From assembly GCF_025602895.1 (NCBI RefSeq), contig NW_026516222.1:124001-188000 (forward strand): a stretch of DNA of 64,000 nt. The letters run 5' to 3'. Position 1 is the stretch's first letter; each line of letters starts with the position of its first letter. Below, in pieces: positions 1 through 50,108 of this stretch. Origin of the DNA: Polychytrium aggregatum. Lineage: Eukaryota > Chytridiomycota > Chytridiomycetes > Polychytriales. The translations under genes were made by a program, and so were the position numbers. The notes beneath the pieces were generated by a model that saw only the letters and a list, made by a program, of their open reading frames with translations, ran no database searches and was not told where the DNA came from.

Positions 1-319
1 CGAGTTCAACACCTCGCAGGTGTGCTCCAAGTGCCTGGAGCCAGTTCGGTTGGAAGGACTCGATGCGCCCAGTGTTGCGAATTCCCACTTTGTCAGGAGC
101 TGCAAGAATCCCAGCTGCCAGACAGTGTGGAATCGCGACGTCAATGCGGCGCGCAACATGATCACAGTATGCAGGTCGATTGTGGAGATCGGAGAGCGAC
201 CGGCGGTCTTCACTCGGAGGCTGCCAAAGTGATCTGATCTATTTCTTGTGGCTTTGCTTGACGCAAGCACAGCACATACTACATGTTCATGGAAACGGCT
301 ATATTGTCCCGTTTTTTTC
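1..319 (+). mobile_element. Right end of the Fanzor-bearing element, ending in a TGTCCCGTTTTTTTC terminus
   Basis: After the Fanzor stop codon, about 55 bp (230-285) are conserved in the two relics at 12.6 kb and 49.2 kb; shared words include TGATC, TGTGGC and GACGCAAG. The element then appears to end at 305-319 in TGTCCCGTTTTTTTC. Read in reverse this is GAAAAAAACGGGACA, matching the ends of the repeat elements at 20696-20713 (GAAAAAAAAACGGGACAG) and 41108-41117 (GAAACGGGAC). A Fanzor guide RNA would be expected to come from the 3' end of the coding region plus this flank. An AATAAA lies just outside, at 322-327. The left end is off the window. Calling 319 the boundary is inference from the shared terminus; no target duplication could be tested. 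Confidence 0.6.
2..232 (+). CDS. Fanzor (eukaryotic TnpB-like RNA-guided endonuclease), C-terminal fragment
   Basis: The open frame enters from the left edge and stops with TGA at 230-232, so only about 76 C-terminal residues are visible. They carry the hallmark TnpB/Fanzor C-terminus: a TS.VCSKC segment (CxxC), then SCKNPSC (CxxxxC), which together form the zinc-binding pairs, followed by WNRDVNAARNM. That last motif is the RuvC-III motif, and its Asp is a catalytic metal ligand. Fanzors are nuclease proteins carried by eukaryotic transposons and guided by an RNA that overlaps the 3' end of the gene; the best-studied one comes from the chytrid Spizellomyces punctatus. The first two RuvC acidic residues and the REC/WED part lie outside the window, so activity cannot be judged. 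The surroundings are intron-rich eukaryotic DNA, so this is not a bacterial IS605 contaminant. Related 3' ends occur near 12.6 kb and 49.2 kb. Confidence 0.88.
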   Translation, partial: EFNTSQVCSKCLEPVRLEGLDAPSVANSHFVRSCKNPSCQTVWNRDVNAARNMITVCRSIVEIGERPAVFTRRLPK

Positions 320-601
320 TGAATAAAGTGTATTGCGATTGCTTGACCCCCAGGTGTGACTTCACGAATGGCCTGTCGGATTATTCCTGTATAGCATCGA
401 CAACCAGTCAATATCGCCTCGGCAGCCAAACCAGCCGGCTGCTCTCCAAGGGCAGAGCAACTCTCCACGGCATATAACCTGAACAGATTTGGCTTATCGG
501 CGCCCCATCCAGCACCCCGCAGTCAACATGCATGCATGCATGCAGCACTTGTGTGGCCGTCACCGCCCTCGGACAAGCGATAATCCATCGGCGGCCAACA
601 C

Positions 602-2251
602 TTACCCCGAGGACGCCGAGGCGGACGAGTTCAGCGTGAAGAAGATGAAAATGAACATGCCTCCCATCAGAATGAGAGCGACGAGGTAGCATTTCCACTG
701 ATGGAATGCAACGACGCATGGGTTGGCTCCATCGAGGGACTGCGGGCTGGGATAGCACCACTCGCAGAGCGGGTCATCTACCAGCACCGTCACCGGGGTA
801 TCCTCGGCACCCGTGTACTCAGGCATCTCGAAGAGAACGGCGTCTTTCGGATCAATTGCGTTTGCCTTGAATATCGCCCGGATCTTTCTGTTCTCCAAAA
901 AGTCGTTGTCGGTCGCAAACAGAAAGGCATCAAACACATGTACGAGTTCAGGCCTCTTGGTTTCTTCATCGCGCACCGTCTTGGTGGCTTCAGTGCCTTC
1001 GTCAAAGGGGTTCTCGGTGATAGGTGGGGCCTTGGCAGGTGACTTTTTATCCTTTTGAACCATCTCCAGCCACTGGGAAAACGTCGCCTTTTGTCCTGTG
1101 GGTGTAATTGCATTCACGTACGAGAGCGATCGGCGGCGGGATGCCGGTGTTGGCGGAGCCATTTTCCCAGCCTCCGTCGCGGGGATCGGCACCGCAAATC
1201 GGGTGACAAAGCCGACCGGGATAGGGGCCTTGGTCTTCTCGTAGTTGCCGAGCGACAGCGGCTGGTCTGGGAGCTTGGCATATGTGGATATGGCTGTGGG
1301 CGACAGAGAGTGGCGTCGCCCAATCACACTGGGATCGATCGACATCGGACTGGCCCCTGCATACGAGATGGAATGCAGCCGGTTTCGTGGGTTGGGTGCA
1401 TCTGCAGAGTGCGGGTGTTGGACAGCACCTTCCTCGGCCTCCTTCAGGGTGGCCTTGCGAGTGGGTGACGGAAGAGCCACAATCGAAGCTTTCCTGGTTG
1501 CGGGTGCCATCGACTGTCGGCGTGCAGGAACGATTGCCGTCGATACCGGCTTGAGACTCAAGCGGCGCCTCCTTGGGCTCTTTGGGTCCTCGGCATCCAG
1601 GTCTTCGATAACCGCCGGGCTGGCCATCGTCCAGGTCGACGGCGCCCCCGACTCGATGGCCTTGACTGTGGGACTCGGATCCAGCCCCATGAGCTGGGCG
1701 CCGCGCAGACCTTCGGCCGGCGGATGCGTTGGCAGTCGCTGCAGCGGAATCTGGATCGACAGCTTCCTTTTCACGAGAGGCACCGGCTCGTTTTCTGCTT
1801 TCGGGGGACCGCCGGGCTGACTGGCGACCACATCTGCATCCTTCACGGTCTTGGTACTCTCCTCTGAGGGACTGGATGAGTCCGCACTGGAATTGGCTAT
1901 GCGGACCATAAAGTATTGCACATTGCCAATGATGTCGGTGTTGGTCAGCGGGTTGAGCACATGCAAGCGATGGATCAAGTTCTTGCCCAAGTACACCTGC
2001 GTCTGAAAGAGGATCTTGTTGAGCTCGAATGCGTTGTAGTATGAGTAGAAGGCTCGATCGGGCTGCTTGTGGTCCCAGGTTTGCACCCTGGCGATGATGA
2101 AGCACTTGGTGCCCTTGGGCTCGGACTCGTAGTGGGCTCTGGCCAGGTCGCCGAAAGCCTCGAGGCAGAACGAGTCCTCATAGTCGGCATGGATAGAGTC
2201 CAGGAGGGTCGTGCCGTTGCTGTCGAACAAGCGAATGACTTCGTCCTCCAT
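602..2251 (-). CDS. Unknown protein with conserved N-terminal domain and C-terminal membrane segment (3' exon not placed)
   Basis: One long exon encodes about 550 residues. I prefer the ATG at 2251 (MEDEVIRLFD) over an upstream one at 2284, because a CCCCAG acceptor-like site lies just before it. Roughly the first 110 residues look globular (tracts such as FCLEAFGDLARAHY and YYNAFELNKILF). A long Ser/Pro/Lys-rich stretch follows that is probably disordered, with repeated RRxSL-type sites. A second ordered block (HVFDAFLFATDNDFLENRKI) comes next, then a hydrophobic segment near the end (YLVALILMGGMFIFIFF). The frame runs into GTAAGTG at about 600, a strong donor, so at least one more exon probably lies below 600; an acceptor near 470 is possible. 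I do not recognise the family. It is transcribed divergently from the TmcB-like gene. Confidence 0.6.
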   Translation of the reverse strand: MEDEVIRLFDSNGTTLLDSIHADYEDSFCLEAFGDLARAHYESEPKGTKCFIIARVQTWDHKQPDRAFYSYYNAFELNKILFQTQVYLGKNLIHRLHVLNPLTNTDIIGNVQYFMVRIANSSADSSSPSEESTKTVKDADVVASQPGGPPKAENEPVPLVKRKLSIQIPLQRLPTHPPAEGLRGAQLMGLDPSPTVKAIESGAPSTWTMASPAVIEDLDAEDPKSPRRRRLSLKPVSTAIVPARRQSMAPATRKASIVALPSPTRKATLKEAEEGAVQHPHSADAPNPRNRLHSISYAGASPMSIDPSVIGRRHSLSPTAISTYAKLPDQPLSLGNYEKTKAPIPVGFVTRFAVPIPATEAGKMAPPTPASRRRSLSYVNAITPTGQKATFSQWLEMVQKDKKSPAKAPPITENPFDEGTEATKTVRDEETKRPELVHVFDAFLFATDNDFLENRKIRAIFKANAIDPKDAVLFEMPEYTGAEDTPVTVLVDDPLCEWCYPSPQSLDGANPCVVAFHQWKCYLVALILMGGMFIFIFFTLNSSASASSG

Positions 2252-3010
2252 CTTGGACGGCTGGGGATAGCGAAGGTTAAGCACCGGCTGGGAAGCCCAA
2301 GCAGCAAGAGAGCAGCCCTTGGCTTCCAGTCTCTATACCAGCCGATGCATCCTCGGTCCAGCCGCGCATTAGTGCAAGTCGACGTCACCCGAGCTGCTGT
2401 GGCGATCAATGCCGACCCAATCAACTGCATGCGACATATGTCGACCCTGGCGTGAACACCGCCTGCCCACCGTATGAGCTCCGGTGAGCATGACCCATGG
2501 GCGGGGCCTTCGACCGCTCTTGGCATAGACAGAGCGCCGATTGGACCGATACTGTCGCCAGGCTGACCACAACAGAATTAGTGCGGCCCGGCTGGTTTGG
2601 TTGATGCTCTCACGCTTTGAATGCATTTTGTAGCAGGCCCGGACGAACTCGATGCGTCGCTTTGCGGCGCCTTGCCCCAGTCAATCAAGCAGATTGCTCC
2701 GGCTGCAGGACATTCGAACGGACCACCAGGCATCGACTCTCTTCGAGTCTTGCCAAGACACTGCAATCCGTCAGCCAGCTCAACTTCGGCATCGACCACC
2801 TGTCGTTGGAATCGCTCAAGTTTCGACTCCCCCAACAACACCCGTCCACGTTTGGTTGCTTCCCTTCCGCCCTGATCAGCGCCGTTGCTCGTCCCTCGTC
2901 CCGACTTCCACGGCTCGAGCTGAGCTGCAAGTCCACGTCGCCGTGAATCCGAATTTGCGTGTTGCAGACCCTCGGGCTTCTCGTTTCTGTCTGCTCTATC
3001 GCCGTAACCG
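2252..3010. promoter_or_regulatory. Divergent intergenic region, no recognised elements
   Basis: About 760 bp separate the start of the minus-strand membrane protein from the plus-strand TmcB-like gene. It should hold both promoters and possibly 5' untranslated exons. Open frames on both strands are short and lack family features. I see no clear TATA box or repeat here. Confidence 0.4.
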
Positions 3011-6000
3011 ATGCCCCTGAACCAGCCCGGGGTCCTCGATCCGGCCGAGTCCCCAGACGCGTCGGCTGTGGCCGAAGCCGACGGAACTCTCGAGGTCTGG
3101 ATCCAGACCGTCAAGAAGGGGCTCTTTGGGGTGCTCTTCATCGTCAACAAGAACGACCACAAGGAGAGTCCGATATGGATAATATCCGAAACCATTCTGG
3201 ACCACTTTCAAGACCTGGGGTTCCCGCTCCTATGCGTGCTGTTTCCGTGGCAGCCCGAGATCCAGTGGCTCCAGACCTTCCTGGGATGGTTCTCGCCCGA
3301 GTCTCTCATCGCGCAGTCGGATATTATCCTCTACATCCTCATGATCGTGCTGCTTCTGATCATCATCAACACCATATTCGTGGCCTACTCGTTCTCGCGC
3401 AACCAATTCCGGTACTTTTGGACCCTCAAGATCCTGCGTGTGACCCTCGGGCTGCTCGCCAACGTTCTCCACATTCCCACGCTCTCCAAGTTCATCCTGG
3501 CGATGGTGTACTGCCCAGAAACGCTGAGCATCAGCGACGGCACCCCAAGAAACATGATCAACTGCTGGTCGCCGACGCATCTGCCTCTCAGCATCGTCGC
3601 CGCCGTGCTGCTGACATTCTTCATGCTGTACGTGATTGCACGGATGATGCCGCCCCGCTCACCACTCGCTCTGTCGCTTTCTGGCACAATACTCATAATC
3701 AGCGAGCTGGACACGCCTCGTTGTTGATGCAGCTTGTCCGCCAGTGTAGTGATGCATCTTATCCGCGGCCCGTCATGCATCATATTATCGTATCCGCTTC
3801 CCTATCAGCCAACAGGCTAACCTGCTGCCCAACTGTTCTTCAGACTGATCACAGCCGTAAAGGCCACCTTCTTTGACCCAGATCCAAACGAAAAGAACAT
3901 GCTGTGCCGGCCGCACTCGCGAGTCGAGCTGCTCTATTTGGGCTGCCGCACTGTCTTGACGGTTCTCAATATTATCTTGGCCGAGGGCTATGGCGAGACC
4001 TCCTACCCCTACAGCAGCCCAACCGTCCTGACATGGGTGTTTGCCGCAGCATGTGCATGCTGCTCTTGTCTGCTGGCGTTTTGCTACATCTGGGTAAGTA
4101 TGGCACTCCTTGAATCGCGCGTGCTGCCGGCCTCCCTTCGAGGATAACGCTGTTGCTCGCCGCTGTATATGCCACGCGGCAGACTAATTCGAATCCCATA
4201 CTCCTTTGCCGTGGACCGGGTACAATGGATTTGGATTCGATGCCTCGGATAACCAATGCGCCAAAGTATATTCCGTTCTACAACTTTGGCTACGCCTGCT
4301 TCAGAGCATGCACCATGCTGAACTTTGCCTGGGCGTCGCTTTGCGCCATCTACACTATCGTCCGGCCTGACTCCGATGTCGGGATATTTTACGTCGCTAC
4401 GATCCCGCTGGTGTCTGTGTTTGCCATTCTCGCGGTTCGCTCGCGCAGGCGCTACATCGAAGGCAAATACTACAGTGACATCAATTCGCCATGGGTTATG
4501 GAGCTGCACATACGTTTCAAGCTCGAGCGCGCCGGCTTGCTCTACAAAGGAATGGGCAAGGCCGGAGCCCTCCGTAATGACGAAAGTCCTGGAGACTTGT
4601 CCTATCAACCGACTGTTTCCGATGACACTCAAGCACCGCCAACAGCATCCAAGGCCAACGTGAGCTCAGAGGAAGGCAATCCGCAAAAGGTCGTCATCAT
4701 GGAAATCACCGAGATCATTTCCTTTGCCCTGAAGCAGTTTCAAGAGTCCTGCTTTCTCCAGCTGCTCGCCGGCCAGTTTTATCTCCTCCAGCTTGGCAAC
4801 CGAAGCCAGTGCCTGGCTTCCCTGGGCCGAGCGGAGCATCTGGATCGAGACATTGATGAAGAGTTTTTGATCTACCGTCGGCAAAGACTGCTGAACGAGA
4901 AGTTTTCTGGTGGCGATGTGATTGACTTTATTGCGTGCGAGCAGAACCTGCGCTTTGCAAAGAGGTTGGTCGTTTGTCTCGATGACGCGGGTGGATCGAG
5001 ATGCGATGGATGGCCGTGATCGATAGCCCGCTGGTCTGAACCGAGCTCCTTTGTTCCCAGATTCGAAAGACGAGCGACCATCGCCATAGCACAGTTCTGG
5101 AGAGAGCTGCTCAAGAAGCATCCCGGCATCCAGAAGCTCCAGAACAAGGGCTCGGACATCAACTCGGCAATCACGAGCGCACAGCAATATTACCTCTCCG
5201 TCCTGAAGCTGTCCCCCAAATCCTCAAACGTGTATCGCTTATACGGAAAGTTCCTCACCGAGATCATGAACGATCACAGGGAGGGCCAGCGGTACCTCGA
5301 CAAAGCCGAGGAGATGGATACGGCAAATCCAGAGTCCCGGGACGGCGGCGAGAGGTTTGACGCTTTGGATCTCTTTGACGAGAAAGTTGCGCATGTCACC
5401 ATAAGCGGCGATCGCGAGGATCTCGGCATTGTAGGTGTACCTGCATTTCGCAGCGCAGTTGGCTGATGTATGACGCAGAGGCAAGCACCGTCACTAAAAA
5501 TCCAGGGCGCCTCCATAACCCTGCTTCCAAACAGATCCAAAACGTCAACTCGACCGTCTCAAAGCTCCTGGGATTCCATAAGAGCGAGGTTCTCAACCAC
5601 AACGTCAAAATCATCATTCCATCGCCATTCGCAGAAATGCACGACATGCTCCTGCAGCGCTATCTTGATACAGGGTTTGCAAAGGTAATGCCGCAGCCCC
5701 GACCACAGAGCGATGTGGATGGCGCCTGTAACCGAGGCTGTTCTCAGTGCATCAGAGCCAGGAATGCGTTTCAGCCATCAGCGCATTCCTGATCTGCATT
5801 TCTTGGTGGTCAACTCGTGCCGAGTGGATTCGAGATACAGGCCTACCGCGTCACCATCGCTCGATGCTGACAGCTCCTTAACCCGGCATCATGCTTTCTT
5901 CCCAACCAGGTCATCGATAGAAAGCGGCACGTGCTCGCCATCCGAAAAGATGGCTATTTGCTTCCGATTGATCTGTGCGTCAAGCAGCTGACGACGTCTG

Positions 6001-12755: not shown

Positions 12756-13000
12756 AGCCAATCCAATAAAAAGCAGGTTTTGGTCGTTGGTGTATGTTAT
12801 CACTCAAAGCATTGCGTGCTGGCCATGACCATTCAGTGATGTGTTTCTGGATCTGCATCAAGGATGCTTTCTCCATCAGATGGCTCCCCGCAAGCGAAGG
12901 CCGAGTATCTTGATATCGATACACCATGGAGTTGTCCAGAGAGTCGAGTGAATGCACTGCACTCCCACATCGAATGCATGCACCACACTTCCACATCGAT
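12756..13000 (+). repeat. Type-1 repeat element, left part (copy a)
   Basis: From AGCCAATCCAAT onward, this copy is nearly identical to the reverse complement of about 20890-21135. Agreement ends near 13000, while the other copy continues to its terminus, so copy a is truncated or interrupted on the right. It has no coding capacity. Part of it (TATCTTGATA, CCATGG, TGTCCAGA) is also shared with the type-2 elements at 41.1 and 49.3 kb. Confidence 0.85.
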
Positions 13001-20502: not shown

Positions 20503-20695
20503 TGGAAGGAAATGGGGGGGGGATTCGATTGGAGCCATTTGGTCAATTCTATTGTTGCGGGAGAGCAGCTCGTATCTGTATGTGGGCTGCGGCCATGGCT
20601 TTGGTGACTCGGTCTCCTCGACTCGGTCTGCGTATACGCCATGAACAAGATGTGAAAGGAGTCCCATTCACGGTCTATGAAAAACAGTCTATCCA

Positions 20696-21135
20696 GAAAA
20701 AAAAACGGGACAGTCACTTCCTGGCTTCAGATGTCTGAAACCCGCTGACTGACTGTAGGCCCAGCGGGCAAGCCATGCGATTGTTTCCCGTCCTGGTTGG
20801 CAATCTCTTTGTTTTGGTTGGTTTGGGAAGCATGGTCTTGAATACACTCGGTCGATCTCCTGTGGCGATGATCGACTGGCATTGATGTGTCGATATTGGA
20901 GTGCGGTGCATGCATTCGATGTGGGAGTGCAGTGCATTCACTCGACTCTCTGGACAACTCCATGGTGTATCGATATCAAGATACTCGGCCTTCGCTTGCG
21001 GGGAGCCATCTGATGGAGAAAGCGTCCTTGATGCAGATCCAGAAACACATCACTGAATGGTCATGGCCAGCACGCAATGCTTTGAGTGAGAACATACACC
21101 AATGACCAAAACCTGCTTTTTATTGGATTGGCTAT
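20696..21135 (-). mobile_element. Type-1 repeat element (copy b), probable non-autonomous TIR element
   Basis: Reading the minus strand, it starts at AGCCAATCCAAT (about 21135) and ends in CTGTCCCGTTTTTTTTTC (20713-20696), the same terminus as the Fanzor-bearing element at 305-319. Its first half matches 12756-13000 almost perfectly. Its second half (GGAGATCGAC, GTGTATTCAAGA, GATTGCCA, GGGAAACAATCGCATGGCTT) aligns with the type-2 elements at 41.1 and 49.3 kb. It encodes no protein. The opposite end lacks an obvious matching terminal repeat, so it may be solo or truncated on that side. Confidence 0.7.
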
Positions 21136-21243
21136 AATCAGGGAGGATCATCGCAAAGTATCCCGGCAGAGAAGGACAATGGAGAAATGTTGGTAGGCGC
21201 TAGGATGTATCAGCCGGGGGAAGGCGTCCACTCACACAGGTGT

Positions 21244-41046: not shown

Positions 41047-41107
41047 TACACCGACAAATGTTTCCGATCCGCAAAACCGCTCGTTCCATTTGCAACGTAA
41101 GGGTTTT

Positions 41108-41638
41108 GAAACGGGACACCCTGCTGTGAGTCAGGGTTGTCGTTGTTTTCTGGTCCTGAATACACACCATTCATCACCCACCATGACCAAAGAGCATGTT
41201 CGCGGTGCCTGGAAGCCGAGCGACTCCAGAAGGTCGACTATCTTGATACCGAGTAACCATGGGGCTGTCCAGATGGTTGGGTGCATCCAGATGGTTGGGT
41301 GCATCCAGATGGTTGGGTGCATCCAGATGGTTGGGTGCATCGAGTGCATCTAGTGCAGCTGGTGCATCTGGTGCATCGAGTGCATCGAGTGCATACAATC
41401 ACATTCCACATCCAGTGCATACAATCACACTCCAGCATCACAACATCAATGACAATCGATTGCTGCCACGGGAGATCGACTGGGTGTATTCAAGATGATG
41501 CTCCCGAAGCCAATGAAAGCCAAGTGATTGCCAGCGAAGACCCGAAACAATCTCATGGCTCGTCCACTGGGGCCAACAAAAGTTCAGCAGTCCTCGGGCC
41601 TCCGATGCCAGCGAAAGAGGGGTACCGTCCCACTTTTC
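41108..41638 (+). mobile_element. Type-2 repeat element (copy a), non-coding with short terminal inverted repeats
   Basis: This 531-bp sequence begins GAAACGGGACACC and ends GGTACCGTCCCACTTTTC. The ends are imperfect inverted repeats (GAAA.CGGGAC and GAAAAGTGGGAC). The reverse complement of 49342-49834 is the second copy; homology starts and stops at these termini in both. The middle holds an 18-bp minisatellite and GTGCATC repeats. The right half is related to the type-1 element at 20.7 kb. It has no protein-coding capacity and is presumably moved by a transposase encoded elsewhere. No target-site duplication could be recognised. Confidence 0.8.
41274..41341. repeat. 18-bp minisatellite inside the type-2 element (copy a)
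   Basis: The unit is GATGGTTGGGTGCATCCA, about 4 copies, followed by irregular GTGCATC-type repeats to about 41395. The copy at 49.6 kb has a shorter downstream part, which accounts for most of the length difference between the two elements. Confidence 0.9.
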
Positions 41639-49165: not shown

Positions 49166-49310
49166 GAAATGGGACACGGTTGATTGTGGAGACGGAGAGC
49201 ATCCCGAAGTCTTCACTCGGAGGTGATCCGTGTTATTGCACATGGTTCTGTTGGACGCAAGCCATCAGATACCACACCAACATATGGGTCATGGGCTAGT
49301 GTCCCATTTC
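49166..49310 (+). mobile_element. 145-bp miniature element with perfect 12-bp inverted ends enclosing a Fanzor 3'-end segment
   Basis: It starts GAAATGGGACAC (49166-49177) and ends GTGTCCCATTTC (49299-49310), exact inverted repeats of each other. Between them lies a degenerate copy of the Fanzor gene's last codons and 3' flank: GATTGTGGAGACGGAGAG, GTCTTCACTCGGA and GTGATC, then TGTTGGACGCAAG. It corresponds to about positions 177-285. Nothing else of the nuclease is present. The most direct reading is an internally deleted derivative that kept the element's right end. It lies 31 bp from the end of the type-2 element at 49342. Confidence 0.72.
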
Positions 49311-49341
49311 CCCTGAAGAAAGTGTACGGCTTGTTCCGAAC

Positions 49342-49834
49342 GAAATGGGACGGTGCCCCTCTTTCGCTGGCATCGGAGGCCCGAGGACTGCTGAACTTTT
49401 GTTGGCCCCAGTGGACGAGCCATGAGATTGTTTCGGGTCTTCGCTGGCAATCACTTGGTTTTCATTGGCTTCGGGAGCATCATCTTGAATACACCCAGTC
49501 GATCTCCCGTGGCAGCAATCGATTGTCATTGATGTTGTGATGCTGGAGTGTGATTGTATGCACTGGATGTGGAATGTGATTGTATGCACTCGATGCACTC
49601 GATGCACCCAACCATCTGGATGCACCCAACCATCTGGATGCACCCAACCATCTGGATGCACCCAACCATCTGGACAGCCCCATGGTTACTCGGTATCAAG
49701 ATAGTCGACCTTCTGGAGTCGCTCGGCTTCCAGGCACCGCGAACATGCTCTTTGGTCATGGTGGGTGATGAATGGTGTGTATTCAGGACCAGAAAACAAC
49801 GACAACCCTGACTCACGGCAGGGTGTTCCGTTTC
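49342..49834 (-). mobile_element. Type-2 repeat element (copy b)
   Basis: The plus strand shows GAAATGGGACGGTGCC at the left end and CACCC/GTTCCGTTTC at the right end. The sequence between is the inverted counterpart of 41108-41638, including the minisatellite and the GTGTATTCAAGATGATGCTC block. The shorter length (493 against 531 bp) comes mainly from fewer GTGCATC-type repeats. The sequence from 49835 to 50108 shows nothing recognisable. Confidence 0.8.
49596..49680. repeat. 18-bp minisatellite inside the type-2 element (copy b)
   Basis: The unit is ACCATCTGGATGCACCCA, about 4 copies, the reverse complement of the array at 41274-41341. Confidence 0.9.
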
Positions 49835-50108
49835 ATTTTGGAAGCTGTACATTCCGCCCATTTGAGTGGTTCATCGACTGGGGTTTCGCCGAGCCATCCC
49901 GCCGTTGTTGTCACTAGCCTTCGTTGGTAAGCTTGTCTCGCAGCATGTACATCTTGGCCACAAGAACAGGCGCTTCTGCATCGACGGGGGGGGGCTACAG
50001 CAGTGATGTTTGGGTGGTCAGGCATTTGAAAGTCACTTGAACGAAATCATTGCTTGGCCGATATTAAAAGTTGATGACAGGCACCAAAACCAGCGTAGAC
50101 ATTAGTCT

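Follow-up and report, generated by a model that had tools for sequence, protein, structure and literature searches.

We found that the left edge of the window (the whole stretch of 64,000 nucleotides analysed here, positions 124001-188000 of contig C113 in the 64.7-Mb, 418-contig assembly of Polychytrium aggregatum) is formed by the far end of a highly abundant cut-and-paste transposon carrying both a transposase and a Fanzor gene. The element has defined ends flanked by TA, two open frames, many copies, short derivatives and, at its insertion sites, a TTA on one side only. We think it fairly probable that a Tc1/mariner transposon, a Fanzor1 nuclease and a guide scaffold in the right end act together here, so that Fanzor would cut empty alleles at a TTA serving as TAM and repair would copy the element in, from which the element may gain.

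Extent and copies of the element

Up to position 330 the window holds the right end of an element of 3,633 bp (C113:120698-124330), which begins with CAGGCAATCC, ends with AAAGTG and has TA on both sides. The right boundary was placed at 330 because the sequence common to the 29 right ends that were read (of 30 loci) runs through TGAATAAAGTG; in 27 of them TA comes next, and the copies diverge only after it. On the left, TA precedes 180 of 183 ends. A common left edge was also seen in a search with the upstream DNA, in which 40 of 718 candidates were scored: leaving out C113 itself and C405, which shares the host flank, most of the scored copies start at query position 1088-1095. Further copies of the element among the 40 were 94-97% identical. 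Nine of ten further copies align across 3,633-3,637 alignment columns with 95.7-96.9% identity, and the alignment of the tenth reaches position 1,989 only. The terminal inverted repeats are 26 bp long and imperfect, with 19 positions identical and all seven differences in the outer 13. Some regions are present as both alleles on separate contigs (e.g. C113 and C405), so copy counts are inflated, and distinct sites are given beside raw counts where possible.

The initial annotation had put a transposon terminus about 75 bp after the Fanzor stop, ending at 319. The 15-mer on which this was based, TGTCCCGTTTTTTTC, does lie 72 bases past the stop, at 305-319, but it is subterminal; copies run past 319, which had been named as a sign against a terminus if no boundary followed, and the boundary does follow, 11 bp further on. 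The explanation that nothing more than a degraded Fanzor remnant and a 15-mer occurring by chance lies here is refuted, and we give it practically no weight. It is true that TGTCCCGTTTTTTTC is not significant within the window alone (three matches with up to 3 mismatches vs 1.28 expected, a count attained in 13 of 100 shuffles), but the genome has 257 exact copies (129 + 128) vs 0 + 0 for the reversed control, and the right ends that were read share the sharp boundary at 330.

Table 1 Features of the element and its relatives (positions in the window)
Feature	Position	Strand	Basis or remark
Fanzor1 CDS 3′ end, last 76 codons and TGA	2..232	+	Open frame, profile match
3′ non-coding region, predicted omega-RNA/reRNA scaffold	233..332	+	Fold prediction
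Right terminal inverted repeat TGTCCCGTTTTTTTCTGAATAAAGTG	305..330	+	Right-end and copy comparison
TA, presumed target-site duplication (TSD)	331..332	+	TA also before left end, C113:120696-120697
Predicted guide-encoding stretch (host flank)	333..347	+	Inference; 15-nt length borrowed from published Fanzor1 RNAs
Left terminal inverted repeat CAGGCAATCCAATAAAAAACGGGACA	Outside window		
Ghost element, sister Fanzor family B	20685..21134	-	End comparison
Diverged element of same group	41107..41635	.	92% identical to 49343-49835
Diverged right end TGTCCCATTTCCCCTGAAGAAAGTG and TA	49300..49326	+	Abuts another CGGGAC-type end (CGGCTTGTTCCGAACGAAATGGGACGG)

Fanzor1 and transposase genes

The left edge of the window had been read as the zinc-finger and RuvC end of a Fanzor, and this reading was confirmed: CSKC, CKNPSC and WNRDVNAARNM all stand in a frame that stays open to the TGA at 230-232. 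Upstream, where the full ORF and the left end were to be sought, both were found, the ORF at C113:121860-124232 (790 aa, no intron, uninterrupted) and the left end at C113:120698. The whole protein matches PF07282 (Cas12f1-like_TNB) with 37.5 bits (cut-off 26.3 bits). The Fanzor1 pattern given in the sections consulted of PMC3627910, D-X(125-275)-[TS][TS]-XX-C4 zinc finger-X(5-50)-RD, is present with D539, 178 residues before TS, cysteines at 722/725/748/753 and D760. Fanzor1 proteins are further described, in the consulted part of PMC10711439, as having DPG and an alternative Glu that replaces the canonical RuvC-II Glu; here D539 lies in the DPG of IDPGVGS, E715 in NEFNTS is the alternative Glu and FGNASW occupies the canonical place, all assigned by eye rather than from an alignment. 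A phmmer search of the Fanzor against solved structures gave no match at 0.001, and the best hit was SpuFz1, in the tail only (E 0.36).

A transposase sharing these ends, which the initial annotation had proposed to look for, was found inside the same element, where its ORF precedes that of Fanzor. It is a Tc1/mariner (DD34E) transposase: the triad D145, D221 and E256, with 34 residues between the last two, is present in both of its versions, and it matches the IS630-family model with 118.1 bits (cut-off 100) and DDE_3 with 75 bits (cut-off 28.6). All ten translated copies, which were chosen by likeness to the copy in the window, have the short version of 268 aa, whose last residues are NFFGVESPPIWG or NFFGAESPPIWG. 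Genome-wide, with 143 copies scored of 525 candidates, the match ends at residue 267-268 in 55 copies and at 261-262 in 88; a 325-codon open frame, that of the longer, 310-aa version, was found in 64, and 129 have no internal stop. A 310-aa product is encoded by L042, a copy with this open frame of 325 codons, and also by the C405 allele of the window's copy, which has a Fanzor match without stops and a left repeat 2 bases short. Repeats of the TTTGGGGTTGAGTTCCTCCAA type (L009:4562-4622) stand at the place of the transposase C-terminus that is missing from the short version.

The best 57 of 1,273 Fanzor candidates were scored, every one of them covering residues 2-790 or more at 94-100%. Among the ten translated copies, which are less selected, the 790-aa frame is whole in six and broken or shortened in four (L044, L047, L050 and L051). 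Mean pairwise dN/dS over the same ten copies was lower for the transposase (0.20) than for Fanzor (0.34). It could be argued from the higher Fanzor value, from the internal stops in 14 of the 57 scored copies and from the four damaged frames that Fanzor is carried along, idle or in decay, by a successful mariner, but we regard this as improbable, since 0.34 is well under 1, 43 of the 57 are free of internal stops and open over 789-790 codons, and fourfold sites show unusual conservation over the final 200 bp of the ORF. Sixteen copies, chosen without regard to their similarity at the 3′ end, gave a fourfold-site diversity of 0.07-0.12 in four blocks spanning 2140-3330, and it dropped to 0.008 (3330-3434) and 0.038 (3434-3535). 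An earlier sliding-window analysis of 43 copies was set aside because most of these had been picked by likeness to the last 330 bp. The low fourfold diversity at the ORF end fits an overlapping functional sequence, and gene conversion could be an alternative cause.

Predicted guide RNA at the right end

The 98 bases from the stop to the end, together with TA, are predicted to fold into two hairpins, of which the last pairs the final bases of the element and TA and closes on GUGUA. The predicted MFE was -24.2 kcal/mol, a value equalled or bettered by 8 of 200 shuffles (z -2.12). For the right end of the sister family B described below z was -1.75 (13 of 200 as good), with TA again taken into the last helix, and for the diverged end at 49.3 kb it was -1.84 (11 of 200 as good), with the last helix one base short of TA; the left end of the element, used as a control, gave 0.11. 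The fold scores of the three right ends are thus modest. Published Fanzor1 RNAs have the TSD inside the predicted scaffold and about 15 nt beyond it, according to the consulted part of PMC10711439, and the fold predicted here takes in the presumed TSD as in these other Fanzor1s; for SpuFz1 an RNA of 75 nt plus a 14-15 nt guide is given in PMC10432273, as far as consulted.

The diversity data count against a simple guide-RNA reading, as the presumed scaffold (3534-3633) is only ordinarily conserved: its diversity was 0.036 in the 16 copies (0.030 in the 10-copy set), and that of the coding stretch 2934-3333 was 0.033-0.042 in four 100-bp windows.

Short derivatives and related families

Deletion derivatives of 279, 308-310, 380 and 1,110 bp share both ends with the element, and 18 of 79 distinct paired sites are shorter than 1,300 bp. 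Eight of nine short or partial loci have a left part, from position 1 to 97 (102 in one), 207 or 663, fused to a right part that starts at 3420, 3468 or 3187/3188 and runs to 3633; for the ninth, L066, the fetched stretch holds the right part only. The shortest right end kept among the nine is 166 bp. These derivatives, like the ghosts of family B, have kept both ends and the presumed scaffold region and have lost the nuclease gene.

Family B is a sister Fanzor1 family, with a different repeat and an end design in common with the main element; its CAGTC end is the right end. The element at 20.7 kb, which the initial annotation had taken to end in the same terminus, is a ghost of this family, with a right-type end CAGTCTATCCAGAAA at 20685, a left-type end TAGCCAATCCAATAAAAA ending at 21134, TTA (TAA on the plus strand) at 21135-21137 and no TA beside the right-type end. 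It contains a match to TGTCCCGTTTTTTTC (20698-20712, minus strand, 1 mismatch). The ends proposed as variants at 41.1 and 49.3 kb proved to be related, but only as the diverged forms AAACGGGACA and TGTCCCATTTCCCCTGAAGAAAGTG. The more general proposal, that Fanzor carriers and non-coding relatives share one end design, held, both through the derivatives with their two ends and through the 20.7-kb ghost. Four translated family B loci contain Fanzor reading-frame pieces of 151-176 codons; a 131-residue Fanzor match (65%) was found at L027 and a 38-residue Fanzor tail (58%) at the allelic pair L055/L056.

Three side observations were made on these families. At L082, L089, L091 and L073 of family B, which is a diverged Fanzor1 family, pieces of the Fanzor reading frame adjoin the right ends. 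An inverted piece of the same ghost family as the 20.7-kb element lies at window 12756-12999 and is 97% identical to 20890-21133. A directly adjoining CGGGACA-type end was seen at 11 of 161 distinct right flanks of the main element vs 17 of 3,208 for the window's TA sites (Fisher p 2e-8), a comparison made with a loose repeat pattern picked after the flanks had been seen, and 2-3 of the 11 look like chance.

One-sided TTA at insertion sites

The left-end set consisted of all 183 (90 + 93) exact matches to one 23-base form, variant ends being excluded. TTA precedes 174 of the 183, and when identical 8-mers were collapsed it was found at 104 of 112 distinct left flanks, with A or T ahead of the last three bases in 87. 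A T stands before TA at 461 of 3,224 sites (14.3%) in the window, vs 104 of 109 distinct TA-ended left flanks (binomial p 8e-81). On the right side, the base after TA was C in 51, G in 45, T in 34 and A in 31 of 161 distinct flanks, taken from 200 of 320 right ends with a search pattern that itself required TA. The right side is without a mirror bias; A would be expected at this place if the preference were symmetric.

Left and right ends were paired for the part of the 183 left ends that lies on contigs up to C334. TTA was present at 51 of 52 paired sites of 3.5-3.9 kb, 17 of 18 short ones and 8 of 9 others, the three exceptions having TTG, TTG and TCA. One unpaired exception has GTA (C119), and its allele at that site, C372, has TTA. 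The pattern in family B is less clean, with TTA at 6 of 9 left ends (exceptions L088 CTA, L074 CTC and L055/L056 ATG); six distinct sites and the window's ghost gave 6 of 7, and two more left ends among the 20 loci fetched were read by eye.

Our best reading of these insertion sites is that TTA is the predicted TAM of Fanzor, as CATA is for SpuFz1. By the logic of SpuFz1, (W)TTA is predicted here, made up of the target-site TA and the T ahead of it. The transposase would insert the element into TA. The right end would hold Fanzor's guide-RNA scaffold, and because of this position the guide of each copy would be the host sequence to its right. Fanzor would then recognise TTA (probably WTTA) together with a match to the guide, which are present side by side only in an element-free allele or sister, and the break would be repaired from the occupied copy, so that the element is restored or spread, as expected of an OMEGA homing system. 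The occupied site would be spared, and empty alleles cut, because in the former the target is preceded by GTGTA instead of TTA. Tentatively, and with less confidence than in the combination of parts itself, we suggest that a DDE cut-and-paste transposon may in this way have been made into a copying element, by a Fanzor with a (W)TTA TAM that cuts empty alleles into which repair copies it.

The transposase itself might instead read TTA in one orientation, its two repeats being unequal, with Fanzor carried along and of no effect on the insertion pattern. We consider this unlikely, though a serious contender. The differences between the repeats are confined to their outer halves, and the 17 of 18 short sites with TTA belong to Fanzor-less derivatives, at which a target preference of the transposase would give the same pattern. 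To our knowledge, however, target preferences of Tc1/mariner transposases are symmetric around TA, and the two flanks differ strongly here. The nine short or partial loci, moreover, all retain 166 bp or more of the right end and may use Fanzor in trans; since the derivatives with TTA that were examined have the presumed scaffold as well, the transposase explanation still stands. A search for a Fanzor-free Tc1 family as a control found none among 150 scored of 335 candidates, which were apparently dominated by the same family.

Allelic insertions

Contrary to what was expected, a search for empty alleles at eight joined sites found none; six of these sites have a single place in the assembly and two are occupied on both contigs. 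Allelic insertions whose flanks are 99.75-99.9% identical were seen to differ in the interior of the element. At L009/L040/L011 (C113/C405) a copy with the short transposase faces one with the long transposase, with divergence of up to about 20% in patches, not counting the block in which the transposase tail is deleted; at L069/L070/L071 (C172/C190) a 307-bp derivative faces an element of about 3.73 kb (size by end coordinates). The differing interiors may be due to gene conversion between copies or to assembly error. If the proposed cutting and copying is true, they would also be accounted for by repair that uses other copies of the element. We looked in the C113/C405 pair for heterozygosity lost locally next to the insertion and saw nothing clear, the flanks differing by 0.1-0.25% and a small gap.

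Comparison with known systems

The one-sided TTA target motif is new here; the kind of element is known, but this one is unusually complete and abundant. The genome offers a transposase, a nuclease, a presumed scaffold, derivatives and more than 100 insertion sites together, so that natural insertions allow a TAM to be predicted, and this abundant set bears on the question of what Fanzor does for its host transposon. The titles and opening lines of abstracts among the matches listed from the open-access Fanzor literature hold no description of this very element. The system as such is not undescribed, as had been suggested at the outset: the consulted parts of PMC3627910, PMC10432273 and PMC10711439 already report mariner elements with transposase and Fanzor1, ghosts that share ends and scaffolds, and a TSD within the scaffold.

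PGv-1 and PUl-1 combine TIRs, a TA duplication, a mariner transposase and Fanzor1 in one element, and PUl-4 is a Fanzor-only element with Mariner TIRs (PMC3627910, consulted in part; Bao and Jurka 2013). Our element is like PGv-1 and PUl-1 in having all of these features together, with a TA duplication that is presumed. PGv-1, however, is described in that source as single-copy and viral, whereas here there are many 94-97% identical copies, two transposase versions, derivatives and a one-sided motif in one genome. The Fanzor1 element of SfAV differs as well, being non-autonomous and present in two copies in an ascovirus, according to the consulted part of PMC10711439.

Spu-1 of Spizellomyces punctatus has a conserved CA before its left repeat, and the TAM of SpuFz1 is CATA (Saito 2023; PMC10432273, consulted in part); a putative TA duplication is given in the consulted part of PMC3627910. 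In the sections consulted of PMC10432273, no transposase was found between its repeats and the authors left the function unknown. The two elements are alike in their TIRs, putative TA duplication and ghost elements, in a guide RNA (predicted here) between the stop and the right end, and in conserved bases before the left end, which match the TAM in Spu-1 and a TAM that is only predicted here. Unlike Spu-1, our element has the transposase inside; its predicted TAM is TTA vs CATA, and the sequence similarity is weak. The cut-and-copy model of TnpB is described in the consulted part of PMC10432273.

The arrangement proposed here resembles that of IS200/IS605 TnpB in its right-end guide, its TAM at the left end and its proposed maintenance by cut-and-copy. 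In those elements TnpB uses an RNA guide from the right end and a TAM abutting the left end, and the transposase is a single-strand HUH enzyme. Unlike them, the element described here would combine such a nuclease with a DDE cut-and-paste transposase.
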